Positions 2,940-48,159 of a DNA stretch of 64,000 bases are shown piece after piece (the stretch's first letter is position 1; every line of letters begins with the position of its first letter). The position numbers and the translations under genes are program-made. The notes under the pieces were generated by a model. It was given only the letters and a program-made list of their open reading frames with translations, was not told the origin of the DNA and ran no database searches. The DNA comes from Buxus sempervirens (Eukaryota > Streptophyta > Magnoliopsida > Buxales > Buxaceae), in the NCBI GenBank assembly GCA_947561395.2, contig OX387194.1, positions 31,878,036-31,942,035 of the forward strand. Direction: 5' to 3'.

Positions 2940-3141
2940 AATTGAGGCGACTGAGGCGAGAGGTGAGGTGACTGATCTACCGAAGGCGACTCACTTCTAC
3001 CGATGGCAAGCGCTTCTGCTGTCGGCGAAATGTGTGGAGTTTGCGAATGCGTAGAGAGAGGCGACCGCAAACGCGAGCATGATTGGCGAGTACTTCTACC
3101 ATTGCTGTCTTCCGTCGGTGGCTTGTGAGGGCGAGGCATCT

Positions 3142-6100
3142 ATGGCGACGGCGATAGTCGGTGGTGGCGAGGATGATATCGGGAGCAATGGCGAAGGGTG
3201 GACATTGGTTCGTGGAAGGAGGAGAGTTAAGGAAGGCGTTTTCAAAAAAGGTAAAGGGATTCACTCTGGGAGCCAGCTCTCTTTGCTGGACAATTTGACT
3301 GCTCTGCACAGAGATCTTATGAATGCGGGCTACTGAAAACGAGATATTCTTCCAGTGCTTAATCATCTGCAAGGAAATGGTATTGGAGGTTCTGGTGGTG
3401 CGAATGAGTTGGCAGATGAAGTAGAAGGTGGGAGTGAAGGCTCATCAAGGGAGGTTCAACTAAATGGTGTTGGGCGGAACAGTAGACGTTTCTCTCAAGC
3501 TATTGCGAAGGCTAAGTTGAGGCGTTCTTCCAGGGAATTCAGGATTCCCTCCAAACTTATTATGTTCGAAATTTCGAACATTTCAAATTGAGTTGCATTA
3601 AGGATTGTTGAGAGAAGTCGATGGTTTTCGGAGTCTCTAATATTGAGTGCAGACGCTATTGCCTGGTCGTGTGGAAAAGTTCAGAGGTTGCTTCTGGCTG
3701 AGAAGGTTGGGCCGTTGGATTCTTTCAAGGAGGGTAGCGTGACTCCAATCCTTGAGCTTCTCTTCAATCACCGCAGCAAATTTCTTCAATTGACGCTTCT
3801 TTCTCGGAGCAGAAGAAGTGCTTTGATCATTCTGTCGAAAGAGAATGAGTTGGTGAGGTGGGAATATGTTTTATGGGGTTATGGATTTTTTTTTTTTTTT
3901 ATAATTACTGATGTGTGTATATATATTAAGAAAGTGAAAGATAAGTACAAGTGTACATGTGTGTATGATTGCCCTCTTCCCACAAAGTACCTTAAGGATT
4001 CCTATACAACTGTAATACACATTTCCATGTACGAAGTTCCAAAAAAACCTCCCAAAAAATATGACCCCCAAATGTATATGGTGCTAGTCAACACATAAAC
4101 CATAGAACTCCTGCGTGACAAGACCAAAATATGAATATGATCTCGAAGCTCCCAGCTTGGCCAATCAATCTGCAATCCTATTACCCTCTCTACACGCATG
4201 GTTGAATGAGGCATTCAACTCACGTGCCATGGCTCTAACTCTGCTAATTAGGTGTGAAAGCCTCCATGATCCAAAAGAAATGCCGTCCATCCATCTCATG
4301 ATTATAATAGAATCACCCTCCACCACAAAATTCCTCAATCACATCTTCTGAGCTTCGGAGAGGGCAGCAAGAAGAGCCATCATCTCCGCACAAATGGAGT
4401 CACCAATGCCCACGAAAGCACAAAAGATGCTGGGTTATGGAATATTGAACAATCAAAACCACCTGGTGGTAGCAAAGTCATGCGTTGAGAAGGAATGGTT
4501 CAATTTCAATGGATCCAGATGCCTGTCGTGCGTGGGTGGAGCTCCTCCATTGATAATGGTGAAGCAAGAGGGAGGAGTAGGCGGAAAGCTGTGGAGGTTT
4601 CCTATTCTCTGTGTTTCTTCAAAGGAGGTTGTGAACTGGGAAAGAATTATGATTTCAGCTGGAAGGGCGGTGGGTCTGGTGATAAGGTTTATACCATTGT
4701 CTCAATTTGCTGCTATTTTATGCTTGAATGGTGAGAATGAGGTGAATGCGTTGTTGGAGGTGAAGATAAAAAAGGTAGCTAAACATTTGCTGAGTTTTTT
4801 GGAGTGGAGAGCAGGGTTGGTTTTTGGAGGGGATACGGGGAACAAAGGGGGAACATGGGTCATGGCGATGGGAATTCCTATTCATCTTTGGGCGAAGGCG
4901 TCTTTGGAGGCAATTGGGGAAGCTTGTGGAGGTTTGATGCAAGTCGGATCATTCTGTTCTTCTGGTAGGTTCATGGGTGGTTTCTCCATTAAGTTGAAGG
5001 AGGAACTTCATAGGAAAATCCCTCGGTCAATGGTTATGTGGGATGGGGCGTCGAAGTAAGAAATTAGCATTCATATTCTTGGCGAAGGTCAGTATTTATC
5101 TTGAAAAGCAGGTAAGGTGTCAGCTCCGAAGTTTTTGAACGCTGATTGCAGATCTAGGAGCTTCAGAGATGTAGTTGCAGAGAGAGTTGGGAGGAAGGAG
5201 ACGAATACGGAAGCTGAATTTGGTGGGGGACAGCCAAGTTTGAATTTCGGGGTAGCCAACACCCCCTAGCAGTATTCAGATTCAGAGAAGGGGAGGGTTT
5301 TGGGGCTTTGGAGTTGGGCCTTCTAATTCTGGGGTTGGAAAGTCTGGGCCTTCTTCGGTGGGCCTAAATGGTTTTTATACCAATCGGCGTGATAGCCAAA
5401 AGAGCATTGGGGAAAGAGGGGAAGTTGAACTGCAACCCTTCAGGTGCAGATGTATCAAAGAGGGAGAGTTATACAGCCCTCCTGGGGTCGATCTAAAAAA
5501 GAAATCGCCTGTAAGAGGCCATCAACAGAGTTCAGTGAAGGAAAGTGGCGATGGGGGTGAGTTAAAGATGGGAGAGATTCCATATGAAGTGGAGTCTTTT
5601 CGTTCGAAGGTGGGGTCTGATGTTTCTGGGGAGCATAAGGCAATTGAAAGGGAGAACGAGGCTTGGAAGGTGCAGATTGCTGAGTGGGTAAAAAAAAACA
5701 GTTTTTTCAAAGAAATCACTCTTCTGGCAATGCTGGTAAAGGTAAGAGGCATTCTTCTTCTACTTCCCCTTCTCCACTTTCTAACCATGGGAAAGGGAAG
5801 TTGACGCACAAGAATGAGGTTGCTGACACCAACGTTTTGGGGGAAAATACTACTGATGTGGAGTTTTGCAACGGTTCTAGGAGGCAAAAAGACTATGGTG
5901 CTGAAGTTGGAGAGCAGCCCCAGTTACGATGCTATTCCAAGCGCTACAAGATGAGAGATAACATGGCTGGTTCATCGGCTTGGGGGATGTTCAGTCGTTG
6001 GGAAGCAGAATCCAGTAGAGAGGCTGAGGTCAGAGGGGGTATTCCAAGGGAGGAAGTTCCACCTGTTTTGTATTTGCCTCATCTTGATGCACCTTCATCC

Positions 6101-6963: not shown

Positions 6964-7583
6964 TTTTTATTTTTTTTTTATCGGTAATGAAAAATATATT
7001 AATAAAATCCAAAAACAGATACAGCCATGTACACCAAAGGTGTACAAATCCCCCATCCCAGACCTCTACAGGTCTTGGAACTTTTCACACCCTAGAACAT
7101 CATTAAGCCTCAAACCCTTACAAGACTCCACAGCCGATGCCCAATAAAGGGCTAAGCTTAGCGAATATTTAAAGAGAGCATTCGGAGACCTTTCTTTGTT
7201 CTCAAATATTCTGTCGTTACGTTCCTTCCATAATGACCACATGACGGCTCCCGGTGTCACTCTCCACAATACCTGAATGGGAGAGACCCCCTTAGTGGTC
7301 CTCCAACATAAAAGAAGCTTCCTCACATTTTCCAGCTGAGCCCAAGCTATTCCAAATTTAACAAAATAGGTATTCCAAAGTTCACTTGAGATCGAGCAAT
7401 GCACAAGGAGATGATTCACATTCTCCACACTAGATTTGCAAAGACAACACCTGCTAGGAAACTGCCACCCTCTCTTCATCAAATTCTCCATAGTTAGGAT
7501 CTTTTCCAAATGATCCTAACTATGGATCATTTGGAGTGTATGGCCCAAATGATCATTCAGCAAATGATCATTCAGACAACACC
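6964..7583 (-). mobile_element. LINE 3' fragment (zf-RVT) nested in LINE endonuclease, with filler DNA at its 5' junction
   Basis: This 620-bp insertion is flanked by an 11-bp target duplication, TGTGATTTATT at 6,953-6,963 and 7,584-7,594. The left side begins with poly-T, so the element is on the minus strand. Its minus-strand frame 7,509-7,066 encodes the zf-RVT domain: CCLCKSSVENVNHLLVHC, then WSLWKERNDRIFENK. The last 70-90 bp at the right are not LINE. They hold an inverted repeat and a copy of sequence from just downstream of the target. Removing the insertion and one duplication restores LKEALGCDL to LLLSGVYGPND in frame. Confidence 0.9.
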
Positions 7584-10575
7584 TGTGATTTATTACTTTT
7601 ATCAGGAGTGTATGGCCCAAATGATCATTCACCAAACTCTAAGTTGTGGGGTGAGTTGTTAGAGGCAAGGGGAGTGGGAGGCACTCTACGGTGTATTAGG
7701 GGAGATTTTAACGTGATCTGTTTCCCATCCAAAAGGCTTGGTGGAAGACAGAGCTCTCCGGCAATGATTCTGATTTCATTGACAATAATTTTCTGTTGGA
7801 TGTCCCTCTTAAAGGCTCAAAATTTACTTGGTCGAAAAATCAGCAAGCTTCATCCCTTTCAAAGTTGGATCGATTTCTAGTGTCTATGTAATGGGAGGAT
7901 AAATTTCCTAAGTTTTCAGCTGTAGCTTGACCTAGATCACTCTCCGATCATTCCCCAATTATGCTATCTTGAGAGAATGAGTTTCAAAAAGCTTGCCCTT
8001 TCAGATTTGAAAACATGTGGTTGGAAGAGGACTCTTTTGTGACTCTTATTGGGAGATGGTGGGAAGAGATGGATGTTCAAGGTACTCCATCTTTTATTTT
8101 TTCAACGAAATTAAGATCCTTAAAATTGAAGATCAAAGAATGGAATAGGGATGTCTTTGGGAGGATGGATAAGAAGGTAGAAGACATTATGGAAAGGTTA
8201 AAGGTGCTGAAGCAGATTGAAGAAGAAGGAAGACTGTCCTTTAAGGAATGGTTGGAAAAGGAAAGAGTGAAAAGAGACTATAAGAAGGCAGCTGCAGCCC
8301 TTGAAATTAGTTGGAGGCAAAAGTCCAGGGCCTTGTGGTTACAATTGGGTGACAAGAATTCTAGTTTCTCCCATAAAACAGCGCTAGCAAGGGGGAGTAG
8401 AAATCATATTGATCATTTAGAAGCTGAAAGCTGCTTCATTCTTGAGGAGAAGGAGATTAACGAGGCAGTTGATTTCTACAGCAATCTTTTTAAATAAAAG
8501 GAAAGAGTGAGACCTTTATTGGATGGGCTTGAGTTTGATTCTTTGTCTAATGACAATACAGAAATGTTGAAAGGTCAAGTCTCAGAAGAATAAATCTTGG
8601 AGACTATCAGTGGATTGGATGGTGATACAGCAAATGATCCAGATGTTTTTTCGATAGCTTTTTATAAAAAAATGTTGGTCTTGCATAGGAAAGGATTTCT
8701 TAAGGGCAGCCCAAGAATTTTTTGATTCAGGCCATTTCGAGAGAAGCCTAAATGCAACTTTTATATCTCATCCCGAAGAAGGAAAGAGCGGCAATGCTAA
8801 AGGATTATCGGCCTATTAGCCTAGTTAGTAGCTTCTATAAAATCATTGCCAAGTTGCTGTCCAACCGGCTTAAAAAGGTTGCCCCGTGTATTATATCTAC
8901 ATCCCAAAATGCGTTTGTGGGAGGAAGACAAATTCTTGATGGGGTGATGTTAGTAAGTGTTTGGACACTATTCAAAGGAATGGAGACGAGAAACTGATGC
9001 GCAAATTGGACCTTGAAAAGGCATATGATCATGAGAATTGGAACTTTTATCTCCTTCAAAGGATGGGTTTTGGTGACAAATGGTGCAAATGGATCCCTCA
9101 CTTGTATCTTCAGCTTCTTTCTCTATACTTGTGAATGGTATGGCAATGAGATTTTTCAGATCAACAAGAGAACTTAGGCAAGGTGATCCCTTATCACCTA
9201 CGCTGTTTATTATAGTCATGGAGGCATTCAGCAGGCTGGTGGACAGAGCAGTAGCGTTGGGCTTTCTAGAAGGTATCTCATTTGGTGGAGGCCGGCTGTC
9301 TATTTCCCATATTTTATTTGCTGATGATGTGGTATTATTTTGTAAAGCTCAACCCTTTCAAATTCTTGTGCTTAGAGCCTTGTTGACTTGTTTTGATGCT
9401 ATAGCTGGACTAAAGGTCAATTTGCACAAAAGTGAGATTTTTAATGCATGTGGTGGTGTGGAAGTGAGCTTTTGCAGTCATTTGGCATGCCAATTAGGTT
9501 CTCTTCCTACCACCTATCTTGAAATTCCAATAGGGGCTTCCTTCAAATCCAAATTCATTTGGGAGCTGGTTGTCACTAGAATGTAAAGGAAGCAAGTCAC
9601 TTGGAAGAGCAATTTTTTGTCTAAAGGAGGGAGGATGACCCTCATAAAGAGTTCTCTTTCAAAACTCCCGACTCACCTCCTCTCAATCATGCAAGCCCCA
9701 ATGTCAGTAGTGGAAAAACTTGAAAGGATGGAATGAAGATCGGAAGTATCACTTGGTTAGCTGAAAAGATGTTTGTACGGAGAAAGATAATGGAGGTTTG
9801 GGATTAAAAACCTTCGTATCTTCAATCATTCTTTTCTATTGAAACGGGCTTGGAGGTATGGGAATGAAGATACTAGTTTGTGGAGGAATCTGATTGCATT
9901 AAAATATGGCTATGAATCTAGAGGTTGGATTCCTTCCCCATTGAATGCCTATGTGGGATGCAGTCTTTGGAGGCCAATCAGCAAATTCGCTCGTTCTTTT
10001 CACAATAACTTATGATTTGTATTGGGAAAGGGGGATTGAATAAAATTTTGGGATTATATTTGGTGCGGTGATGAGCCCCTTAAGTCAAGATTCCCGGATA
10101 TCTATAATCTTTCAACAAGGCCTCAAGAATTCACATCGGAACTGCAACATCTTGATTCTGGTGGAGGGGGTTGGAACTTGAACCTTAGGCGGAATCTATA
10201 TGATTAGGAGTTGAAACCTTTAACTCAACTCTTGGATAGTATTAATGGGCATTATCCTTCTTCTAACCCGGATGTGATGAGATGGTCAGGAAGTAAGCAT
10301 GGAGATTAATCAGTGAGACACATTTACACACTATTGAATAAGGACAGCAATTTCAAGCCTTCTCATATGTTGTGGCAGCTAGGTATTCCATCAAAGATTG
10401 GGTTTTTCATGTGGACGGCAGCTTTGAGGAAAATCCTATCTCTTGATAATCTTATAAAGCGCGCGGTTGGCAGCTACCAAATATGTGTGTGATGTGCAAA
10501 TCAGAAACAGAATCTGTTAATCACTTATTACTTCATTGCAAGGTTTGGGAGGCCTTGGGTTCAACAACAAAGTGT

Positions 10576-14600: not shown

Positions 14601-17600
14601 CTTTATGTTCACTATGGCTTTTCACAAACCAACCATGTATGTTCCTTTATATGAAGCAGGTGTCCGCTATGAGGTTGGCAACACGAATCTTGTCTCTCCA
14701 TCCCGCTCTATCAAAAATCATATCTTCAGTTAATCAACGTTTTTGTAAGTCTTGTTTTATAGATTCCATCAATGTCTTTTTAGTTCTGCCTCTTACTCGC
14801 TTAGGCCCTTCAATATGCATACTCTCACACCTTCTTACAGGTGCATCTATTGGTCTCCGCTTCAAATGACCAAACCGCCTTAACAACCCTCCTCCATCTT
14901 ATCCCTAATGAATGTCATGCCTAACCACTTTTCAATATCTTCATTTCTTATTTTGTCTTTCTTAATTTTGCCACAAGTCCATCTTAATATCCTCATCTTG
15001 GTAATACTCAACTTCTAAACATGTTGGTTCTTTGCCGCCCAATATTCTATCCCATATAACATAGCTGATCTTATTGCTGTCTTATAAAACTTACCTTTTA
15101 ATTTAAGTGGAACACGTTTATCACACAAAACCCTAGAAGCACCCCTCCACTTAAGCCAACCAACTCTAATACTATGTTTAACGTCTTTATCAATTTCTCC
15201 GTCTTTTTGTACCATTGATCCAAGATATTTGAATTAATTACGTAATGGGATATCCTAATTGTCAATTCCAAGGTTTACTGTTTTGGTGCCGCTGAGCCTG
15301 CTGTCAAAAACACTAGAAAACTTAAAGGAACAATTTTTTTTGGATTTGGGAAATATAGCACAAATTGAGCGAAATTTTGCCCATTCCGCTCGGCACATTG
15401 CTGCATTTCGACCGTGCCACTTGAAATTTCGCTCAATTTGTAAAAGAACAAAATAACCCCATGTAACGCATTGTTAGGGTGTCTTAGAGCGAAATTTCAA
15501 CGGCATGCTGTGGAAAACACCAGTCAATTTTAACAATTTCATTAGTTATAATGTTATTTGTCTTAAAAGGGCATTTCACATATTCAGTTTTTGCACAACT
15601 TATTTTAAAACCCTTTGATTGTAAGGTATCTCTCCACAATTCTACCTTAATATTTACTTCTTCTCTACTATGGCCCACTAGTACTACATTGTCTGAAAAT
15701 AACATACACCAAGGCACCTCATCTTGAATAAGACTCGTCAACTCATCCACTAAGGAGAAAATATAAAGGCTGATATATGACCCTTGATGCAAACCTATCT
15801 TAACCGGAAAATCAGTTGTCACACCGCCAACAGTTTTCACTTTAATTAAGGTTCCCTCATACATATCTTTCATTACATCAATACCTTTCTAAATCAATGA
15901 AAACCATATGCAAATCTTTTTTTCTTTTCTCTAGACTATCCTATTAACTATCTCCATAAAAATATAGCTTCCTTAATGGATCTTCCAGGCAAAAATCCAA
16001 ACTGCTTTTCTGTCACTCTAGTTATTAGCCTCAATCTATGTTCAGTCACTCTTTTCCATAATTTCATAGTGTGACTCATAGGTTTAATGACACGGTAATT
16101 TGCACACTTCTGTATGTCTTCCTTATTCTTATATATCGGTATTGCTGTGGTATTTTCTCTCTATTTTCTGTTTTTGTTCCACCGTCTCATGAACCTATTG
16201 TATTTGTGCTTCTTCCTTTTGATGTTTAATGAAATCCATTATCATCTATTTAATAAAAAAACAAATCATAGAGAAAGGAAAAATCCCAAATTACTAAACA
16301 TGTAGAAAACCTAATAATGTCATAACTGAATATACAAATCATATGGAAAGGAATAATCCCACTCATTAAACATGTAGAAAGCCTAATAGTACTTTCAGAT
16401 CTGAATATACAAATCAAGGATGGAAATTTCGCATTTTGCTGAGGGAGATCTAGCAAAATCAGGGAATATTTCCCCATTTCCCCTCAGGGAAATATGTGTT
16501 TTTCAATTTTTCTTGTATTTTTTTTATTTAATATATTCATAATAAGTGCATACATGGAGAATATGAGGAAATCTAGGGAAATATGGGAAAGCTTGGAGAA
16601 ATTTCGCCAGATTGTTACGAAATTTCGCCGACATTTCTCGAAATTTGGCCAGGATTAGGAAAACGTAAGGAAAGTCGGGAAATTTCGTTTTCCCCAGACA
16701 TTTCGTGTCATTGACCTTGCGATATCAAAATTTCGGTGAAATTTCACCAAAATTTCTTGAAATGTCAAACGCTAATACAGATCATAGGGAAAGGAATAAT
16801 CCCAATTACCTCTTATTAGGGAATGCAATCAACAAACAACTCTTGCTGAAACCAATGAATCAATGACCTAGGCAGACCCCATGATCAAATCAGCCTTTCT
16901 TCTCTTTTTAATTCTGAAACGAAGTAGATCTCCTCTTGATCATGTTTTCTTCTTCTTCTTTCTATTCACATTTTCCCAAAACCATGAAAAGAAAATCCAA
17001 CACCTCACACGTTATGGGGTTTGAGAGTTATTTAAATTCCTAATCTACCTTACAAAATAAAAATTACCCAAACAAGCTATTTTAATTATACACAATTAAA
17101 TCACTACCCCGGCATCTGGTGTATGTGCAAACAGAGGTATTGATGCATCCTCGCCAATCAGGTCCCTGCAAAACATAGACCGCAAACTTTTCAACCCCTT
17201 AACCTCCTGGTCAGAGTCTTTGGTTTGACCCAAGTCCTTACATAAATCCTATTTTAACTGTTAGAAGAGTATTAGATTTATGTAATTCTGTTATTAGAAT
17301 AATATATGATTTTTATTTGAACGGGTTGGGTTGTTATGTAGCTGCCATTGTAGTGTAGTTACCATATTTGTTTTTTAGTTATTTGTAATTTCTATATATC
17401 TTGACATAGAACAGTGAAGGGAATAAACAGATTATAGATTTATTTCTCTAAATTCTTTCAGTATTTTAACATGGTATCAAAGCCAGGCATGGCATCTTTT
17501 CAGTACCCTCAACGGATCAACAGTATTCCAGCAACCTTCACCAGACTCTAATCGCTATCATCAGTCATCAGAATCGACAACCCCTTTCCATAACCATGAA

Positions 17601-20600: not shown

Positions 20601-23600
20601 TGTCCACCCACTTTGAATTAATCCGTTCAAATTTCCAGGGTCCTTTCATCATTGCATCTAATAATTTTCATTATTTAGTTTCCCTTGCTGATGACTACTA
20701 TCGCATGGCATTGTTGTCTCTTATGGAAAAAAAACTTTTTGAATTACTGCATATCTTTCAAATTTTTTGCAAGGAAAAAAAACGCAATTTAATCACAAAA
20801 TTAATATCTTACTCTCAGACAATGCTAAAGAGTATGCTTAATCATAAAATTATTACAGCCTTCTGATCCATCTCCGGCTTCTAATCTTTCTACATAACAT
20901 ATTTCTGTTCGGTAAGGTGCTCAGTCTTGTGAAACAAAACACCCTATTGGTAATTTTGTCTCTACCAATCATTACCTTCTTTGTATTATACATATTATTC
21001 AGTTTTTCGTCTACACTCTAATGCTAGGCATATCATACTTGTGGTTTACCTGGATGATATTGTGATCACTGGATATGACTCTGAAGGCATTACCAAGTTG
21101 AAACAGTTTCTACAGGAATGCTTCCATACCAAAGATCTGGGAAAGCTAAGGTATTTCTCGGGGATTGAAAGGTCTCAAATGGGCATTAATCTAACCAGAG
21201 AAAGTACGTACTTGACAAGTTGACATATTGAAGAAGCAGGACTACTTAGTGCTAAAGTTACTGACTCTCCTATGGATCTTAGTTAGAAACTATTGGGAGA
21301 TGAGGGAGGCATATTTCAAGATCCTGTCAGATATTGTTGACCAGTTGGGAAATTAAACCATCTCATTCTTATGAGACTAGATATCTCATATGCAGTGAGT
21401 GCAGTCAGCCATTCTTAGAAGCTCCTAGACTCCCACATCAGGATGCTGATACCCACATATTTCAGTATTTAAAGAGAGCTTCAGGTCACAGTATATTATA
21501 TAGAAAGCATGGTTATCTAAGAGAATAAGTCTTCACATATGAAGACTTGCAGGGTCACCCTTAGATAGACAATCCAATATACGATATTGCACACTCTTGG
21601 GAGGAAATTTGTCTCCTGGAAGATTAAGAAACAGATGAAGGTTTCAAGGTCAAGTGTAGAGGCATTGCTCACACAGGTATTGAGCTGACATGGCTTCAAC
21701 ATTTTCTTCAGGAGATTGACTCAACAGCTCCTAATAATTTTTTTTTTCTTTTTGGTAAGTACCAGCTCCTAATACTATATCACTGTATTGCAATAATCGG
21801 GCAGCCCAACATATTGCCTCCAATCCAGTATTCCATGAAGGGATGAAGCACATTGAAGTGGATTGCTATTTTTGTACGAGACAAAAACTCCTTGGCGATA
21901 TATCTGACCATTTATGAGATCTGAAGATCAGCTTGCAGAAATATTATAATAGCCTTATGCAGAAATCGATTAGAGTATTTGTTCCAACTAGAGTGCAAGA
22001 AGAATATTAAACTGATATAATTCTGTTATTAGTATTGACAGAATATATGATTCTATTATTAGAAAATTGACAGAATATTGGATTGGGTTGTTGCGTAGCT
22101 GTCACTACGGTATAATTACATATTTGTGTCTTCCTTATTTTGCAATTCCTCTATATATTCACATGCAATGGTGAAGAGAAATACACAGATTTTCTACTTA
22201 TCTCTCTAAGTTATGTCTCTATTTTAACGTAAACAAATTACCGACTAGATACACTGATTAAGCAATATGAAAACAAAAACAAAAAAGCAGAGCTCATGTC
22301 TTGACAAATTTAGCAAAAGTTTTGTGCTAGTTGACAACCTGTCAAGAGCCCCATCCATTACTAGGCTTAGGACCAGCAAGACGGAAAGGACAGAGCTCAA
22401 AAATATCATAACAGATAGGTTAATAGTTTCCAGAAAATTACACAGATCTGAATAATGCTTACTCAATCATGAAATCAACTGCAATGTCTTTCAAATGGAC
22501 TTTTTTCAAATGACTTTGAACTAAATATGCTGCATTTTCTTTGCAATACTTTTTCCCACAAAAGCATTCATTCAAAAATAAAATAACCCGTCTGTCAACA
22601 GGTTCATTCTTGAAATTAAGTCTGCAAAGAAGTATTTCCTGAAAAGGACAAGAAGGAAAAGGAAAAATTATATTAAAAAAAGAGCTCTCAGAGAATATAT
22701 TTGTACATCATGAGAAGATAGGCATAGGGAAAAAAATAAAAAGAAGTAAAACAGACATAATATATTAACCATTCTACAAAGAAGCACCTTCATCAGCTCC
22801 CATGAAGAATTGCTACTTGGAGAAGAATCAAGAACCGCTTTGTATGCAGGATTTGAAATTGCTGTCGCAGCTAAAATCCCAACAGGCTCACCGGCAGGAT
22901 AGACACCCTGGGGATCAGATCCAGCACCTCCCCCGTAATTAAACTGGACAACAGAATTGCTACAGACATTTCTCACAGTTCCATCATAGCAGATAACAGC
23001 ATCCCGAAGAATGGCCATCAGGTTCTTAAACAGAGTTCCAGGTCCAGTTAGTCCTCTTGATGAACGCACAATCACTTCTCTAGTAGAAATAGAATGGACC
23101 AATTCCTCGTAAGGGTTCAAACCTTGAAAGAAACAACTCTTGATCAACCCCAATGCCTCAGAAGGCAAATCAACTCCACAAATAGAGTATTTGCTCTGGA
23201 ACATCCAAGTCATTTCCTCAACCAAGGTCCTCGAGTACAATTTACCCCTATCTGAAAGTTGCAGACCCAGGAAGCCAACTTGCTGGACCACCTTGCTGAT
23301 GGATGAATCACTTTTTGAATCGATTAAATCTCCCAATGAAGATGCCTTCAAAATAAAATTCACAACTGGCATTTTCACAAGTCTCAGGTGATTCTCCACT
23401 TGCAACTCAACTAATTCACTGTATGCAGATCTCAAATGATGAAACAAGGGAGAAATGTTTTGGACATGCATACGAAGATTTTGTAGGACTGAACTGACAA
23501 TGAAAAAATCTTCCAAGCTAACAGTGAAACCTTCTGAAAACATGTTTTCCATCAACAGAGGCTGTAAACAATTGAAGAACTTAAGCGCCTCTTTGGAACC

Positions 23601-26600
23601 ATCCTTAAAGAAAATAGAACTAATAATGTCATTAAACAAGGGCTGCACTGCACCTCTATTAAAATCAACTTTCAACATCTCGCTTTGACAGATCAAGTGT
23701 CTTTCCCCACAACAATCAAATTGAGCAGGTAAAGCAATCCCCAATATCTGTAATGTAGTCCATCGGGGGCCATATTGAGCATTCCACAAGGCAGGTTGTG
23801 GTAGGGAAGTTGAAACAAACATTGCTAACTGCTGGGCAGCTGCCCGGTTCAAGAAATAGACCCTAAACATAGTCTTTAGTGACAACAAAGAATCATTTGC
23901 AAACTGCAAGTTCAGATCACCACTGTGAGAGCTAAGTAATTGTTTCTCCACTGAAAACAGCTCCAATGCCTCTGCTTTAGCTGCAAGAGACTGGGGATAG
24001 AACAAATGAATACAATCACCATCAAAATCGGCACCAAGAGGCCCACAGATGAGAGGGTTTATTTTAACAACATTATCATTGTGTATATAGACTGATAATG
24101 CTTGGATTGAATGCTTGTGAGTACTTGGTGGTCTGTTAAGGAAAATGATATCCCCATCCATAATTCGCCGATGCACCACTTGACCAGGTCTTAAGAATGT
24201 ATGCCCCTTTGAACCTTCCTTCAATGAATATGTTGATAACCCAACCTTGTAGGTTAGGCAGAACTTGTTATCCACTAGCTCTTGTAAACTCTCCATGTTG
24301 TGCATGTTAACTTTCTCTTCAAATGTAATCCTTTGTGCAATTTCAAATGGTAGACCAACTTCATTAACTCCTTTATACGCATCACCAGTAATTGCACAGC
24401 GAGAAGAAAACCCTGAACCCTTACTGATAAAGAGTGTTTTCATCTTTTCAAGCCATGTTTTCTTTGAAGAATCACTAGTCTCCTTATTGACACCATATCT
24501 CAAGTTGATATCCCGAAATGCCTGTAGTGTAAAAATAAAAAATATAAAAAGAGGCAAAAAGAACAATATGACAAATTAAAATTTAATCCAATATATCTCA
24601 AAAAGTTGTTTACAAGATCATAAGATCATGATGGAAGAATGAGTCGACAAATAGAAACTACCGTTTCCATCAACAATCAGTCAGTTAAACTATATATCCT
24701 ATGCTGTACAGCCAGAGGAGTTTTTTCTGCAAAATTAGTGGTCATCTAATCTTATAGAACTGCCAATGGATTATCTGCAATGCTTCACACAGCTGAGACT
24801 TAGGATGCCATGTCTTATCACAATATCTGGGATGGCACAGATGTGAGACACATATCTTATGTGATTGGAGATGGCTGCCATCTCACTACTATGAATCTAC
24901 AATGGAAATGCCATGAGTGAGTTACTTCATGATGTACCACATTGCTGCTAAGTGCCACCACGAACCCAATAATTGAGTATAGAAGAAGAAATCAAGGCTT
25001 CCTGAAGAAATTAATTCCTCTTCTAGAATTATATGGATGGCGAAACCCTCTTCCCACGTAAAACAAGTGACATAAAATATACCTTTGTAGAGCCCCTGAC
25101 ATGAAGATATTGTGCAACGGCTGATTGCAAGTCATTGGCTTCAACTTCATGAGATTCAAAATTTGGAGAACCAGATCTTGAATTCTTGATGCTTTCAACT
25201 TGCTTAAGAACTTTTTTAAGCATAGAAATGGAAAGATCCTGGGGACCATAATGAAAATTTCGATTCATTTCAAAAAAATAACTATCACAATAGATTCAAG
25301 CCAAGCAATGAGTAAGAACTTACAGAAGACATCATAGTAATTCCATCAGAAATATCTGGCACAGCCAAACAATTAGGAGGAACCGGTAGATACTGCAAAA
25401 CAAATCCACAATCTGGAAAATATCCTTTCCCAGCAAGCTTTTTTTTGGTCTCGGCAGGAATCCGTTTCAGAATTTGTAAAGCCTGAAATTGTTTGAAAAG
25501 ATAGGTATCACAAAATAGGGAATATGGGGGCCATCAAATATAGATATGAGAGATTTAAAAATAAAAGCAAAATAGATTATAGGATAATTTCAAATGTAAA
25601 AGAATCTTATACACCATCCAGATCCAAAGAACAGAAAGCAAAAAAATAAGATGCACACTTAACGCAATCTCCAAAATATACTAGAGCTTGATGCCATCAT
25701 GCTCTTTGAAAGGAAGAGTTACAAACCTTCTAGTACTGACATGGTAATTGAATTCAAAGCCAACACACTGACACAAAGGGCTATCCAGCTAACTGAACTA
25801 GCCTACATAAGTTACTTAAAAGAGATTAGAAACGGAAACAAAACCATTTGATTCCTCTGAGAGCTCACAGAACCAATCACAACGCACAAGTTGTTTCACT
25901 GCATTGAACTATAAAAATATAACAAAAATTTAAATTATGAACTAAGAAATAAGAAGTGAAGGAGAGAGCGAGAGAGAGGTGAATTGCCATTCATTTTAGA
26001 CTGCCCTGTCTCTTGATTTTTTTTTTATATGAATAGAGATGACAATGAACTACAAAATCCAAATAAATAAAAACATAAAAAGAACAATGCTCATGTCATC
26101 CCCCCCAAGTTGAATCTGGTTGAAGCACAAATGGCTATGACTCCCAACCTACATAAAATTTCTTCTAATTGAGCTCTGTTAATTGACATAATCAAACGGC
26201 TCAGAACATATCGCAACTATGAGTACACATGCCTTCAGATAACAGATCTCTGATAGATTAAATCACTAGGATCAAAGGAAACAACGCAACCCTGTCCACA
26301 TGCTCAGCTACTTTTTTGCATTTTCTTGGTGAATATGAATGAAAAGGAAAAGGAGGATATACAATAGCTTTATATGGAGTAATAACCAGATTTGCAGGCC
26401 ATATTCAATGGATACACCATCATTAAAAATGTTGAAAGGATAAGATAATAAGCTGTGTTTGGATCAAGATATGGATATCATAGCCCCAGGTCTTATGTTT
26501 AGCATTGTTTCACCATGTAATTATTTTGTAAATTTCTAGATGATAACATTTTTCCTTCATATTTATAAATACTCCTTAGAATGAGTTGATTTAAGTTGTT

Positions 26601-29600: not shown

Positions 29601-32600
29601 GTTTCTACAACACCCAAGACCCAGTTGTACGTCATGGATTATTTGTAAAGACCTGGACTTGAAATATTAGTCAAGAAAATGTAGAAATGAATGTTATTTT
29701 GTTTTAGAGCCAGATTGTCATAGGGATGCTATAGGCATCTGCGAGTGTATTCCCTTTTCCAAAAATAGTGGCTCAACATAGAGCTCTAATCAGTTGAAAA
29801 CCCGTAGAACTGCAATGCACACGTATAATACTGTAGAGGGGGTTCTTATTACTGACGGGAATGTGGGCTGGCCGGAGGCATCTAAGAAAACTTCACGACA
29901 CCAAACCAGCTATAAGGAAAGGTAAGGAATGGCATTATAGTTATGCCAATGTTTACAATTTTGCAATATTTCACTCATACATCAGCAAAATATCATTTTC
30001 TCCAGGGTAATGACACAAAATGACTGAGGAAATCAAGATTTCCCTGCATTTTCGGCATGTCACGAAATTTCGACAAAATGTCATGAAATGCGTCACTTAA
30101 ATTTCGCACATGGCCTAAAGTCACATGTGAAATTAAGTTGAAATGGCCCTTAAAAGGGCCATTTTCTCCTCATTTCTTGGCATTCTTGCTTCAAAACTTC
30201 TTAGATTTGAGGATTTGGCAAAATCTTCTCTTCTCATTTCTTTTGTATTTGACTATGTGTTAACTTGATTAGTTTTATTTCTTTTCTTCTTTTTTTTTTG
30301 ATAATTAATAAGAGATTCCATTAAAAATAGCAGAAAAAAGATAGTAACAAAAGCATACAATAGTCCATGAGACAATGGACCAGAGAAAACAAAGACAAAC
30401 CTACAAAAACCCTATTCCTATACAACCATGCACATGCCTTGTTGTCTTACTTGAAGGCAAGAGCCCTCCAATGAAGTGAGACTTCAGCTGCCGCCATTCC
30501 TTGGCTCACCTTCCGTATACTAACCCAAGAAGAGGCTAAGACAATTACCTCCTCAAACACTACTTGGGGAGAAACATAGATATCCTCAAAAATCCTCTTG
30601 TTCCTAGCCTTCCACACATACCACAATATGGAAAAGCAGACTGCCTTATACATTTCCCGCCCAAACTTAGTGAGAGAAGGAAAACGCCACTGGTGGGCTA
30701 ACTAGCAAATGTCACCTGGTACTACCCAACTCACTCCTGCCAGTATAAGAAACAACCTCCATGCATGAGAAGCAAACTCGCAATGGATGAATAGATGATC
30801 AACCGACTCCCCATCCTTTAGGCATAAAGAACACACCTGAGGTGAGAGAGCTATAAACTTCCTTCTTCTCTGAAGATTGTCAAGAGTATTAACCTTTTTT
30901 AAGAGCACCAACCATACAAAAGCTAACATCCTTGTGGGTGGGGGGAGGGGACAATGTTGAGTGGGGTTTGAGGACAGAAGGTGCCTGAAAAAGGATTTAG
31001 AGGTGAAAGAATGTGAATTATCCAAGGGCCAAAACTTCACATCTGGAACTGAAGGAACAATCACTACATCTTTTAGCAATTCAAACAATCTAAACCCAAC
31101 TTAGACCAAGATAAGACATCACACACAAAAGCATCCTTGTTTGAACAAATTTTGAATAATGGAAAGAAACCGCTAGACAAGAGTCACCCCACCACATATC
31201 CAACCAAAAACGAAGAGAATCCCCTTTTCGCAATCTGGTAGAGACAATAGGAAAGGAGGACAGCGCAATAGTCCAGATTGCCTTCCAGGGACTAAGAACA
31301 GAACACCACAGGGCATTATGACTCCCTTGTCCCATCCTGTGCAACCCAAACTTACTGATTATCACCGTTGTTAGAAACAGTGGATCATATTCTGAATCCA
31401 AGGGGGGAGGGCCTAAGAGGCCCTGTGGGCCGAGATTTTGGGGCTCTGATTGTAATATCATAGGCCTAGAGTTGCAGTACCATTATCTCTGCTTAAAACA
31501 ATATAATTATGCCACAGAAAATCAAGATAAACATGATTGCATTACCCTTGAAAGAGGTGGTGTTTTGTAATAGATAAAGACTGGGTGGTGGAAACTGTAG
31601 AAGCACTAGTGAAAGCTTTCTTAATTCAAGTCTACATATGACCAGGCTTTCTGGGGTTTTGATTGGAATACATGGCCCACATAATTCTCATAGTCACTGT
31701 TTATTTTGGGAACAATTATATAGAGTGAAGGATATATTTGCTTTCCTCGGCTGTATGGGTGGCGACTGCAATTCCACAAGCATTTCTTACAAGTGGTTGA
31801 TTAGAAGCAATAATTTCAAGGTGCTTATTAAGCAACATTCCCATGGAAGTTCCAATTAGCAATTTTCAGTGCTCCAATAGTCAAGATTCACAATTTTAGC
31901 CAATTGACCAAATGCATCATCAACATCCCATATATGGCTCGATAATCAAGAGTCACAATTTTAGTTAATTGACCAAATGTACCAAATAGTACTATAAAGA
32001 GTAAACGATGTAATAGGCCCACAATTCCATCCAAGTTTCAGATTATACCTTGACATTTGTAAAAGCAATTAAACCTTAAAAAAAAGGCCAGAATAAGATC
32101 TACATGGAATGAATGATAAAAAAAAGCTCAAATATGCATTAGAAGCAACATGGTAAAATACTAAACTCGATGATCATATATCCAGATCAGATCCTCACTA
32201 CCTCAACAGAACGTCTACCTATAAGGTATATTACTTTATAACTTTCAGGTATTACTATGCTCTAGTTATTATTACAGGTAAACTATACGCTCTTTCAATT
32301 GAGAAATGGCAAGAAACCAAATAAAAAAATAAAAATTTAATTGTAAATAAGATTCATATATGGATCACTACAAAGATTAAAATCACAACATGACTTATAT
32401 TAGACAACCAAACAAAAGCATGTCCATGAACAAACAAAACATATTTTTCTGGTAATATATGTTTTAGTGCTTACCCGACAATCTTGGCATGCATTTGATA
32501 GTCTTTCATATTCAGCATTCTCCTGATTAGAAATAGTAAAAAGAAAAAATTCAGAAAAGGAAATCAGTTATTTAAAAGAAAATGGGGGTAACTAAAAATT

Positions 32601-43443: not shown

Positions 43444-43961
43444 CGCACTTAGTTTACGGGCAGCACACAAAAGGCTCCAGATTCTAATTTTTGGGTTTAA
43501 TAATGATCAATCTAATCTAATTCAATTACCTTTAATCCAACATGGTCTCTGATTGGTCAGAGACCTTCTCTTGGGATTTGGGCCCACCTAAGGCCCAATG
43601 AGGTCTCCATGTGGGCCTTCCAACGGGGCCCACACCCGCCTTGCTCAACCTAGATCCATCCCGGAGGTGGATCCAAGCAACTTGGGCCTCCCATGGGCCC
43701 CTTCCAAGCCCAATGGACCCCCACTTAAAAGCTACTTAAAAGCTTAAACCAATCAATTCAATTGTTTTGCACTCTTAAATTACACTCTAACCAAATAAAC
43801 CAAATCCAAAAATAGGGTTATCCAACGTAACCCCCAAACGGGACTCAGGCTGTTTTTAGCCTCACTTGGCATCCTATGGGCCTTCTAACGGGGCTCGCCA
43901 CTCAAACTTAGATCACATGGCCTAAAAAGATGAAAATCAAAAGGGGACCTACACCAGGCAT

Positions 43962-44170
43962 TAGGGCTGCAACTCGGTCCGGGTAAAACCGAACCCGAAC
44001 CGACCCAAACCGACTTCGGGTCGGTTTGGTTCGGTTTTTTATATGCATGGTTCGGTTTTGGTTTCCAAATCCTAAAACCGAATTAAATCGGTTCGGTTTT
44101 GGGTTGTATAATCGGGTAAACCGAACCGAAAGTATATATTTCTTTAAACCGAACCGAACCAACCCGAAAA
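43962..44170. repeat. Left terminal and subterminal repeats of the hAT-type element
   Basis: Begins TAGGGCTGCAACTCGG. Rich in AACCGAACC and GGTTCGGTTT in both orientations, complementary to the right end at 47,855-48,065. Subterminal repeats of this kind are where hAT transposases bind. Confidence 0.85.
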
Positions 44171-44612
44171 TACATATTTTAATATAATTATATATATATA
44201 TCTAATTACCTATTACCTTTACCCTTAAAGTTTTACCATATTACAAAGTCACCCTCTCTTAAATTGAACGAATCCCTCTCTCAAACCCTAAATCCCTAAT
44301 TCTGTTTGCTGGTTTGCCTCCTCTCTCTCTCAGCCGAACAACAACCTTGGAAGAAGAAGATGAATCACCGAACAGCAAAAACGATCAGCCCTAGCTCGTG
44401 TTTGCCTCCTCTCTCCCTAATTGTGTCTGTTGCTGCAATCTGTCTCAGGCTCGCTTAAAGAAGTGCGTGCCGTTGAAGGCGAGAACATCAGGTATTGGCT
44501 TCGTCTTCGCCGACTAAGCTTATTCTTCTCGCTCTTGTTGTTCTTCTTTTCTTCTTCCTCCTCCTCGCAATAATAACTGCTCGTCGCGAAGAAATAGACA
44601 GAGAAAGGAGAG

Positions 44613-44642
44613 ATGGCTTGCCTGCACGATCACAGCTGCGAG
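44613..44642 (+). CDS. Captured first coding exon of a PITH-domain protein gene
   Basis: ATG GCT TGC ... GAG encodes [10 protein letters not shown], the conserved N-terminus of plant PITH-domain proteins (thioredoxin-like C-terminal domain family), ended by the donor GAG|GTTTTC. A leader rich in CT and ACCCTAAA-type motifs lies upstream (44,270-44,612). The element probably captured the gene's promoter and 5' UTR too, and so may supply transcription to the chimera. The PITH domain itself is absent. Confidence 0.8.
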
Positions 44643-47600
44643 GTTTTCTCTTTCATGTTTTCGTTTAGGTTTCTTGACTACTATATGCAACTGTTTCTCT
44701 TCGTAGGTTTCTTTTCGTAAATGTGTCTTTTGGTTTGCGTTTCTTTGGATTTTTAGGTTTTTCTTTTCGTTTATGCTAATGCAAGGTGACCGTTTGTAAA
44801 TCTTCGAGTCGCGTAGTTCTTTCGAGATGGAGTCGTTTGTGTAGTTGCAAAACTGCTACTGCTACTTCTGGTCTGTTTCCTTCTGTTTGATTTTGAAATG
44901 TATTTTTACAGTACTAGTTCTTCGACCTAGGGTTTCGTTTTTCAGATCTCTCCGTAATCGCATAGGAAATGTAGGACTTGTTCTATTAACTTTCATTAAC
45001 TTTCATTTTTCTGCCAAGTGTTAAGCTTTCTTTCTTTCTTTTTGTCTTTTTTCCTCCCTTTTCTTTCTTTTTGTCTTTTTTCTTTTCTTATGTAGTGCCT
45101 ACATAAGAAAAGAGATTTCTTCTTGGTCTTCTAGAATCTCTTTTTTAGTTGCGTATGGCTAGTAAGTTCTTAGACATTTCATGCCATCTGCTTCAATATT
45201 ATCATTTAAAAGTGAACTTTTCCATGAATTAAATGGTGTGTTTTCTTTTGTGGTTGAAGGTGAGGACAGAAACCAGCCCAGAGGATGTCGGAGGTATGCA
45301 TGCAGCTGCTGGAATCTTGACAGCTAGAGGTGGCATGACCTCTCACGCAGCTGTTGTAGCCCGTGGCTGGGGAAAATGTTGTGTTTCTGGCTGTTCTGAA
45401 ATCCGTGTCCATGATACTGAGAAGGTCAATCTTCTTCTTCTTCTTTTTTTTTCCAATTTTTTCTCATATTATGACCAGTGTATAAATATATAAGCAGAGT
45501 ATATGAATTTTTTTCTTGATAATATAGGTGCTTGTAATTGGAGACAAGGTAATCAAGGAGGGGGAGTGGCTTTCACTTAATGGGTCTACAGGAGAGGTGA
45601 TCATGGGGAAACATCCACTTTCACCTCCATCTCTAAGTGGTGACTTGGAAACCTTCATGTCATGGGCTGATGAAATAAGGCATCTGAAGGTACCATTATA
45701 CACTCTGGTGAGGGACAGGTTTATGATTATGCACTGGTGAAAACTCTTTAACTAATTTAGTATCATGATTTGCCAAGTAGGTTATGGCAAATGTTGACAC
45801 ACCAGAAGATGCACTAACTGCAAGAAATAATGGTGCACAAGGGATTGGACTTTGTAGGACAGAGCACATGGTATGTGAATCTAATTTTTTTTATTTTCAC
45901 TGTCTTCAGTCTTCTCAAGGTTCCACATTATATTTTTTAGAAACAGAACAGTACTAAATATGTAAGAGAGTGAAAGATGTGGTCTCACAAGTGTATGAAG
46001 TCTGGACTATAGGTAGTTAGGTACTATAATTTATAGTGAATTTCCACACTAATCTTCCAAGGTTTGATTCTTTACGTGTATTGCCTGTCTCAGTTCTTTG
46101 CTTCAGATGAGAGAATAAAGGCTGTTAGAAAGATGATAATGGCAGTCACACCTGAACAGAGAAAGGCAGCACTAGATATCCTCTTACCATATCAAAGATC
46201 TGATTTTGAGGGCATTTTTCGTGCTATGGATGGTAAAGTTTTCTTCTTTCTGCACTCACCAACACCCACCCCATATGTATACAATTTTATATGAATTCTA
46301 GTAACACAACTCAACAGTTCCTGTAATTGGAATAATCCTGACAGGAGGTCGCCTAAGCTTACGGTCCTTCACATTCTCTTGGATTACCAGAAAATTTATC
46401 TCATTGTATACTAAGGACTTCACAGAACAGAGCTTTTTATATGGCTGATTACTTGTACAAACTGCGAAAATATGCATCTAAACTTTCCATTTATGTGGTT
46501 CGTTTTCCAAAGCCACATGATTTGATGTGGAGAAGACCATCATTTATTGTGTTGGCAGAAAAAATTTAAGTTCAGTCTGAATGCAGCCACTTGAGCAAAT
46601 ATGCCAAAGGTTAAGTTTGTTGCCAGCCTTTCCCCCCAGGGTCCCTAATAGTAGGACCTACACTAGATTATGGTTCTTTACATGATATTGCTGTGGCATA
46701 TGAATTTCTTAAGATATCTTGCTCACTTCCATCGTTTTGTACTTCTAATATTTTTAGTTGAGTAAATGAAATATGAACCTATTTGGATTCAGGTCTTCCA
46801 GTAACAATTCGATTGTTGGACCCTCCACTCCATGAATTTCTTCCAGAAGGAGACCTTCAACAGATTGTCAGTGAGCTAACTGCTGAGACTGGGAGTACTG
46901 AAGATGAAGTACTTTCACGGATTGAGAAACTCTCAGAAGTAAATCCCATGCTTGGTTTTCGAGGCTACAGGTTAAACACCATATTTTGAGCATTTGAGTG
47001 CAGTTTCTCCATTTATTGCTCCAAATGTAGTTAGTAAGTAATGTTGTCTGTTCAATTGATAAATTACTTGCACCTCACAGCAGTAACAATAATAGTGCTC
47101 TAAGATTTAGTCACTGTAATTAAGCACCTCATATATCAACTCCTCATTCTTCATATATTAAATGAAACATAAAATCTGACAATTGGAGTTTGTTGGCAGT
47201 TAGACTTGTATCATATGAGGATGTAGGCTGGTTGTATATGGGTATTGGTCTTATGCGTGTGATTTTTATCTTTGTCTCTCCATTTATCTTTTGCTCTTGG
47301 TCCACTTTCTCATGGACTGACTGTATTAGATTTTTTTTTTACCTGCTTTTTAATGCATTTCATCATTAACTATCAGACTCCATTTATTTCTACTTTGGTG
47401 GACTTAGCAGAGTTCCCTCACATTTGTGAATTTTTAACTTCAAATAAAAATTTGTGTTACTAGGTGTGGCGCGAGCTTTGAGATTGAGATTGTGTCAGAC
47501 CAATTTGAAGGGAAAATATTGCTTGAGAGGCATAGGCTGGTAAATTCTGCATTGGTGGAGGAGATGAAGCACATCCATGCACTTTCAATAAAGAAAGCAC

Positions 47601-47659
47601 TGACCTCTGCACAGTGGAAACAGCAGCAAGAGTCCAACAATCTTCAATCTACTTCTTAG
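44613..47659 (+). CDS. Chimeric gene: PITH exon 1 + PPDK phosphohistidine region + BolA2 C-terminus (319 codons)
   Basis: Seven exons join into one open frame: 44613-44642, 45260-45424, 45528-45689, 45781-45870, 46094-46232, 46793-46970, 47464-47659. Residues 1-10 ([10 protein letters not shown]) are the start of plant PITH-domain proteins. Residues 11-254 are PPDK, with the phosphohistidine loop [20 protein letters not shown] and the start of the PEP/pyruvate barrel ending LGFRGYR. Residues 256-319 are BolA2-like ([17 protein letters not shown] to HALSIKKAL). All junctions are GT-AG with matching phases (0,0,0,0,1,2). No active PPDK is expected: the ATP-grasp half and most of the catalytic barrel are missing. 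Whether it is expressed is unknown. Confidence 0.85.
45260..46970 (+). pseudogene. Captured pyruvate phosphate dikinase (PPDK) fragment, five exons with introns
   Basis: Exons encode [20 protein letters not shown] and [10 protein letters not shown] (swivelling phosphohistidine domain with its active His), then [70 protein letters not shown] and [17 protein letters not shown] to LGFRGYR. Retained introns (103, 91, 223 and 560 bp) show capture at DNA level, not from mRNA. No stop or frameshift. Compared with a full PPDK of about 950 residues, both the N-terminal nucleotide-binding part and the C-terminal barrel are lost. Confidence 0.93.
47464..47659 (+). CDS. Captured last exon of a BolA2-type gene
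   Basis: Encodes [40 protein letters not shown] and [15 protein letters not shown], ending QSTS and a TAG stop. The ERHRxVNxAL and HALSIKKA motifs are BolA signatures, with the invariant His present. The exon begins in phase 2, which fits the PPDK exon before it. The N-terminal helix of BolA is missing. A 3' UTR follows to about 47,830. Confidence 0.93.
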
Positions 47660-47854
47660 TAATCCTGTTATAAGCTTTTGATGGGGCACAGCAGAGGCAC
47701 TCTTCTATTATGTACTAGTTAAGATTTATACACTGAATTGAACATGAAGTAAAAGGTTGAAGCCAACTGAAACATGTAATTTCTTCCTTTTTTATGTGAC
47801 ACTGGTAGATATTGTTTCATTGTTATTTAATTTTAATATTTTATAAATAAAAAA

Positions 47855-48065
47855 ACCGGAAACCCAACCCAAACCGAACCGAATTGCAAATTTCGGTTCG
47901 GTTTGGGTTGGGTTTCGGGTTTTATATAAAAAATCGGTTCGGTTTCGGTTTGGGTTGTTCGGTTCTGAGGTCGGTTCGGTTCGGTTCCGAACCGACCATC
48001 AATAACTTTGGTTTGGTCCTGGGTTGAGGCCAACCCGAACCAAACCGCACTGAGTTGCCGCCCTA
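47855..48065. repeat. Right terminal and subterminal repeats of the hAT-type element
   Basis: Ends GAGTTGCCGCCCTA before the duplication. Dense GGTTCGGTTT / AACCGAACC motifs mirror the left end. Confidence 0.85.
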
Positions 48066-48159
48066 CCAGGCATATGGTCCCCACCAAAGACCAAATCAAG
48101 TAAATATGTTGACTTAGGATGGGTGAGGTAAAAAATGAGTTGACTTGTTAAAGGCTAAC

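Follow-up and report, generated by a model that had tools for sequence, protein, structure and literature searches.

A stretch of 64,000 nucleotides of the Buxus sempervirens genome (the window, C21:31878036-31942035) contains a 4104-bp non-autonomous hAT transposon at 43962-48065, which holds pieces of four unlinked host loci joined in one orientation. The observations support the identification of this element as a Pack-hAT without a transposase between its ends. It very probably belongs to a Pack-hAT lineage that has gained host DNA repeatedly, by patch capture in break repair. The Pack-type assignment is based on the target-site duplication (TSD), the ends, empty insertion sites, a second copy that has transposed, and relatives in which the hAT transposase is intact. 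All genome searches were made against the window's own assembly (676.5 Mb, 247 contigs).

Ends and insertion site

The boundaries of the element are as follows.

43954-43961: left TSD CCAGGCAT, exact 8 bp, present as a single copy in five fetched empty-site paralogues
43962-43975, + strand: 5' terminal inverted repeat TAGGGCTGCAACTC
43962-44446, + strand: hAT-family 5' terminal and subterminal region (element 1-485), common to relatives
47829-48065, + strand: hAT-family 3' terminal and subterminal region
48052-48065, - strand: 3' terminal inverted repeat TAGGGCGGCAACTC, as read on the - strand
48066-48073: right TSD CCAGGCAT, exact 8 bp

An earlier reading of the window from its letters alone (the sequence-only reading) had proposed an exact 8-bp duplication, hAT-like ends, subterminal repeats and the lack of a transposase, and each of these was borne out. 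The first 14 bases and the reverse complement of the last 14 are identical at 13 of 14 positions. The 14-bp end has 627 exact matches genome-wide (295 + 332), against 2 (2 + 0) for a reversed control. Within the 64-kb window the end pattern at up to three mismatches showed no enrichment (10 matches versus 8.5 expected), and both exact matches are the element's own termini. GGTTCGG/CCGAACC motifs cluster at both ends, with all 15 starts in the element falling no later than 44154 or no earlier than 47874. No transposase domain was detected by Pfam in the spliced frame of the element, and the transposase region of a relative, E15, is absent from the matches between E15 and the window element.

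Empty sites were searched for with 200 bp of each flank joined through one copy of the duplication, and 40 of 2758 candidates were scored. Two of the 40 matches listed were the flanks of the window element itself, and every one of the other 38 crosses the joint uninterrupted, with a best identity of 88%, indicating that the element lies in a dispersed repeat with empty relatives. When five of these sites were fetched and aligned, the eight bases were present once in each, with an exact match in L068 and a single difference in each of the remaining four. The sequence-only reading had considered that the two 8-bp copies might be chance matches, and these empty sites in paralogous repeats of the same genome speak against it.

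Four captured pieces and the chimeric frame

The parental genes named by the sequence-only reading (PITH, PPDK and BolA2) were all located, and a junction was placed at each piece by donor alignment. The donor search scored 40 of 2260 candidates, and its counts are lower bounds. The captured pieces, all on the + strand, are listed with their donors.

44447-44643, + strand: PITH fragment (upstream part, ATG and first ten codons), donor C11:41860359-41860555
44639-45076, + strand: fourth source, X, which gives the GT of intron 1, donor C1:2810316-2810769 (locus L045)
45060-45113, + strand: X/PPDK junction with filler, the same in the second copy E30
45091-47377, + strand: PPDK fragment, five exons with introns, donor C22:26923433-26925731
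47383-47828, + strand: BolA2 fragment (intron end, last exon and post-stop sequence), donor C4:16556298-16556742

The PITH piece (element 486-682) is 99% identical to its donor, with 1 of 197 aligned bases different, and the donor locus reads on in frame as PITH past the capture breakpoint. The PPDK piece (element 1130-3416) is 98% identical, with 21 of 2278 aligned bases different, and more PPDK exons are present on either side of the captured stretch in the C22 locus. The BolA2 piece (element 3422-3867) is 96% identical, with 15 of 445 aligned bases different. The C4 donor holds BolA2 residues 30-91 in a single exon; a farther BolA2-like locus, C8:16949020, matches the element at 85%. In a BolA2 protein search the best match was from Telopea, with Macadamia among the next. 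Introns were retained: those of PPDK, and the intron end of BolA2, match their donors. With a donor locus located for each piece, on four contigs (C11, C1, C22 and C4), the capture of genomic DNA from unlinked host loci is supported.

The proposed three-gene chimera was rejected, because the sequence after PITH exon 1 matches C1:2810316 and not the PITH gene. Capture of exons together with introns was upheld for PPDK and BolA2; for PITH it was not, since only the 5' part and ten codons are present and the intron comes from the C1 locus. The X piece (element 678-1115) is 93% identical to its donor with gaps, with 14 of 424 aligned bases different. At full length it is found only in the C1 locus and in the two element copies (the window element and E30); four further matches are short and partial (7 of 7 candidates scored). 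None of five open reading frames around the C1 donor had a Pfam match, and the list of open reading frames in a further 5 kb nearby contained nothing nameable.

Seven predicted exons with GT-AG introns give a frame of 319 codons that stays in frame over both fusion junctions.

44613-44642, + strand: exon 1 of the chimeric frame, ten PITH residues
45260-45424, + strand: exon 2, PPDK
45528-45689, + strand: exon 3, PPDK
45781-45870, + strand: exon 4, PPDK
46094-46232, + strand: exon 5, PPDK
46793-46970, + strand: exon 6, PPDK
47464-47659, + strand: exon 7, BolA2, with stop codon

Exon 1 ends off the PITH splice site, since the capture truncated PITH exon 1 and the C1 piece contributes the GT. Its ten residues were found in 55 of 120 listed plant PITH proteins, 53 times at the start, and nearly all the others open with a near variant; an approximate PITH query was used for this search. 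The spliced frame has Pfam matches to PEP-utilizers, PEP-utilizers_C and BolA, and its PPDK part aligns, from about residue 428 onward, with plant PPDK chains of known structure. No published twin of the chimera was present among the 120 listed of 7993 scored proteins, which were candidates of 0.55 to 1.75 times the query length with the most shared words; this is not proof of absence.

A second full-length copy, E30 (C21:18744882-18748996, 4115 bp), is 98% identical, consists of the same four pieces and keeps the 319-codon frame open. Among the matches listed it is the only other place with the full arrangement of pieces, and it is itself a copy of the element. The finished chimera is present at two unrelated insertion sites, which show that it moved in the past. 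A third, partial copy (C19:17175726, in L032, C19:17174226-17178702) covers element 2628-4104 at 99% identity; at element position 2628 it is truncated by DNA that reads like a retrotransposon end.

Relatives, junctions and order of capture

Other elements with the same ends were found. The family sample comprised 25 distinct places (28 loci, three of them repeats), chosen partly for exact, nearby ends. At 19 of the 25 an element with both ends (up to three mismatches) and an 8-bp TSD was found, the TSD being exact in 14 and with one mismatch in 5. Recognisable host genes, by Pfam or donor match, are present in 7 of the 19 elements. These include E15 (L015) and E14 (L014) and elements with topoisomerase I (L010), PPR (L012), LRR (L016), PAP2 (L021) and BolA2 (L023) sequences. 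No host gene was recognised by Pfam or donor match in the other 12, in which host DNA is possible. The PAP2 phosphatase domain of L021 lies in an unbroken frame of 244 codons at 499-1230. The PPR-like frame of L012 is on the - strand, at 388-903 of the element, opposite to the orientation of the 5' end.

Two of the relatives encode a predicted transposase. E15 (7253 bp, TSD GCAGCCAA) and E14 (7727 bp, TSD CTCTCATC) have the same terminal inverted repeats as the window element, and each contains an open frame of 680 amino acids. The frame of E15 matches zf-BED, hAT-like_RNase-H and Dimer_Tnp_hAT in Pfam. Both copies have an intact hAT transposase frame between intact ends with a TSD. A search of the genome with the transposase protein, in which 65 of 1963 candidates were scored, gave 69 matches. 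The E15 and E14 frames are full-length, stop-free and at least 99% identical, and the other full-length stop-free matches are at most 79% identical. Many open frames of about 660-690 amino acids at 42-44% identity form a second hAT transposase group in the genome.

Both transposase-bearing copies hold PITH, PPDK and BolA2 pieces and lack X. E15 carries 96 bp of PITH at 100% identity, PPDK (donor 1176-2810) and BolA2 (donor 1588-1945). E14 is a mosaic of fragments of eight host loci in all, among them a PITH piece, 130 bp of PPDK and 157 bp of BolA2 at 84%. It also contains C4:7124079-7124897 in two blocks, which flank a nested piece of C4:9670776-9671356. A BRX gene (C11:43092226-43093725) is represented by three blocks, and nested within it are a HECT piece (C4:2253121-2253493) and a stretch of C8:13055900-13056542. 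At 1254-1833 and 6464-7104 of L014, captured host pieces lie inside other captured host pieces. A cyclin D label for one E14 piece was given by eye, with no Pfam match.

The junctions carry characteristic marks. The PITH and X pieces share a 5-bp overlap, CGAGG, at their joint. The X/PPDK filler contains a 29-bp direct copy of the sequence on its left (45031-45059, 90% identity) and a perfect 15-bp inverted pair (45081-45095/45099-45113, 3-bp loop), in which the beginning of the PPDK piece is repeated in inverse orientation. The PPDK/BolA2 joint of the window element has an overlap of a few bases at most; that of E15 has an 11-bp filler, ACAGGAGGTCG, which recurs 66 bp upstream in PPDK. A before/after pair is provided by E14 and its sister element (C8:9812242-9818667, TSD GTCAAAAT): where the BRX donor gene and the C8 sister have the same 28 bp, E14 instead has 667 bp, of which 641 bp match C8:13055900-13056542 at 99% and the remainder is short filler. 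The C8 sister represents the earlier state, because the donor gene has the same 28 bp. Taken together, the junctions bear the hallmarks of break repair with template switching, the latter supported by the filler and the microhomology.

The order of capture was deduced from shared joints and from the contents of the relatives, scored against the four donors. The joint between BolA2 and the 3' end is identical in 10 of 10 elements (window element, E30, E15, E14, E23, C19a, C4b, C3c, C3d and C9e), and the joint between the hAT 5' region and PITH is identical in the window element, E30, E15 and C19a. TSDs are exact in C4b, C3c, C3d, C9e and the C8 sister; in C19a the TSD is displaced by 4 bases on one side. 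Of the four donors, C4b and C3c contain BolA2 alone, and E23, C3d and C9e have the longest BolA2 piece (donor 1132-1945) without PITH or PPDK. C19a has PITH and BolA2. Because one BolA2 joint occurs in all and the PITH and PPDK pieces occur in subsets, serial capture is supported, with BolA2 first, then PITH, then PPDK. The broad outline of a tree of the 3' part fits this order. In the window element the C1 piece occupies the place of the E15 transposase, and so seems to have replaced it. The sequence-only reading had offered serial or template-switching capture, and both find support, the former in the shared junctions and the latter in the filler and microhomology.

An insertion of 8 bp beside CACGAT was observed in the captured PITH exon of L036 (C19a), L014 and L054. 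It is absent from the donor, the window element and E30, and looks like a hAT excision footprint.

In the proposed sequence of events, an element suffers an internal double-strand break or is left with an excision gap, and the repair copies an unlinked locus; each piece would have been added in this way. Template switches during this repair would leave microhomology and filler at the joints, and one such repair may have swapped the transposase region for the C1 piece and so given the window element. A more far-reaching version holds the transposase-bearing copies to be a capture platform that grows by repeated internal patch repair, with unlinked host loci as the source, into nested mosaics and sheds gene-shaped derivatives like the window element, with the first-kept pieces, gene 5' and 3' ends beside the matching termini, serving as promoter and terminator for the transposase or for a chimera between them; this is speculative and rather unlikely.

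Several points weigh against repeated patch capture in the order given. Well-supported forks number only 3 of 9 in the 3'-part tree. Stem differences from the donor are 10/424 for X, 12/445 for BolA2 and 15/2276 for PPDK (X versus PPDK, Fisher p 0.003). X, expected to be the youngest piece, is therefore about as diverged as the old BolA2 piece, and its divergence would place it before PPDK. This excess could be accounted for if the donor locus evolves faster, if another allele was the source or if a carrier has been lost. No ancestor that combined PITH and transposase with the complete PPDK stretch was found, and the PPDK stretches differ (donor 1176-2810 in E15, donor 1501-3799 in the window element), which leaves some room for two independent PPDK captures. 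The flanks of E30, CTTGTGACTG and CTTGTGAG, form an imperfect TSD (7 of 8 bases, two extra bases). Finally, it is by inference that the breaks are attributed to hAT excision, through abortive gap repair of the kind known from Ac/Ds work.

Alternative explanations

The chimera might be an expressed new gene under selection, with PITH giving the start and BolA2 the stop and 3' untranslated region. The predicted exon structure, in frame over both fusions and open in both copies, would suit such a gene, as would the absence of the 7 indel events between the window element and E30 from the exons, which is also expected under weak constraint. The 44 substitutions between the copies include 8 in exons, of which 6 are nonsynonymous and 2 synonymous. 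Purifying selection finds no support in these numbers (dN 0.0081, dS 0.0092, dN/dS near 0.9; low power with only 8 changes). Relative to both donor and E30, the window copy changes Cys to Tyr in PPDK (TGC to TAC) and Arg to Ile in BolA2 (AGA to ATA). The top eight protein matches cover only the PPDK part, 78% of the query. The exons show 10 differences from the donors, and 4% of single changes create a stop, so a neutral frame would stay open about two times in three and its openness is weak evidence. A selected gene is thus improbable. More probably the chimeric frame is a neutral by-product, its openness explained by its youth and by intron phases that chanced to fit.

The assembly itself could have come about in other ways. 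Neighbouring Pack elements, each with one gene piece, may be mobilised together by their outer ends with the DNA between them trapped. Gisby and Catoni (2022, PMC8903248) reported such tandem insertion for Pack-TYPE elements of plants, hAT among them. This route has a slightly smaller chance still than selection of being the explanation here, since there are no internal end remnants (the pattern at up to three mismatches matches only the two termini of the element), no GGTTCGG/CCGAACC start lies between 44155 and 47873, the donors are on four contigs, and the E14/C8 sister pair has an internal patch instead. Filler and microhomology would also be left by a single repair episode with many template switches that joined all four pieces at once. 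This is very unlikely given relatives with BolA2 alone, one with PITH and BolA2, E15 and E14 without X, and the unequal stem divergence of BolA2 and PPDK. Segmental rearrangement of host genes with chance end repeats and no transposon would agree with donors that are ordinary host loci, and can practically be dismissed in view of the 627 end copies against 2 control matches, the TSDs with no or one mismatch at 19 of 25 sampled places and the empty sites. Repeated patch capture in break repair remains by far the best account of the whole lineage.

Other features of the window and comparison with known elements

Elsewhere in the window, the - strand at 22671-24575 has an open frame of 635 amino acids with matches to Rpb1 domains 2 and 3 and a sub-threshold match to domain 5; it is probably part of a host gene for the largest subunit of RNA polymerase. 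DUF4283, RVT_1 and zf-RVT matches, one RVT_1 below the cut-off, lie at 4352-5056 and 9077-9583 (+ strand) and at 7069-7515, 15487-15888 and 30705-31100 (- strand), and are probably remnants of long interspersed elements (LINEs).

Rice Pack-MULEs, in which gene fragments are captured between element ends, were reportedly described by Jiang et al. in 2004. They belong to the Mutator superfamily, whereas the window element is a hAT. Some rice Pack-MULEs are expressed as chimeric transcripts, and according to a 2026 review the capture of unlinked genes might still have an undiscovered mechanism (PMC13317346). The sequence-only reading took hAT captures to be much rarer than those of other superfamilies. 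They are better documented than this implied (PMC2528002, PMC3260210, PMC8903248, PMC8277862), with host gene pieces known in hAT elements of grapevine, maize, rice, animals and a fungus (also PMC3538342).

Like the lineage described here, Hatvine-6 of grapevine (Benjak et al. 2008, PMC2528002) combines a shared transposase and terminal inverted repeats with variable interiors, which in many cases match host DNA, both genic (exons and introns) and non-genic. Its description, in the portions available, does not include a multi-source chimeric frame, ordered captures or junction analysis. Maize Ds2 and Ds-l4 (Du et al. 2011, PMC3260210) are likewise non-autonomous hAT elements with intron-bearing fragments from other chromosomes. 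Gene fragments were reported in 2 Ds2 and 9 Ds-l4 elements, by a mechanism called not known, and the accessible text has no in-frame multi-source chimera such as the present one. The Pack-hATs of maize and rice (Gisby and Catoni 2022, PMC8903248) resemble the window element in being non-autonomous, with 8-bp TSDs, captured coding DNA and exon shuffling; tandem insertion was favoured as their capture route. The pipeline of that study classes elements with a transposase match as autonomous, so that E14 and E15 would escape the Pack-TYPE call.

Microhomology and template switching at breakpoints are also seen in animal Pack-TIRs, 208 of 370 of which are hAT (PMC8277862). Single-copy animal Pack-TIRs were mostly ascribed to gap filling without transposition, whereas the chimera in Buxus is present at two sites. 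The Pyrenophora hAT (PMC3538342) is likely autonomous and has an additional gene and a shorter derivative, similar to the situation here; it differs in being fungal and in carrying one histone H3-like gene, and a multi-locus mosaic is not described in the text available. In the literature searched, mostly non-subscription papers, neither a hAT chimera with an open frame and four unlinked donors nor an intact-transposase hAT with eight host loci was seen described.

Pack-hATs as such are already known, and it is the capture history of the window element that is unusually well resolved. Within a single genome the lineage offers donors, intermediates, a before/after pair and junctions with filler, so break-repair capture is open to step-by-step testing. 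Elements with an intact transposase frame can hold many host fragments, and Pack screens that exclude transposases would miss them.

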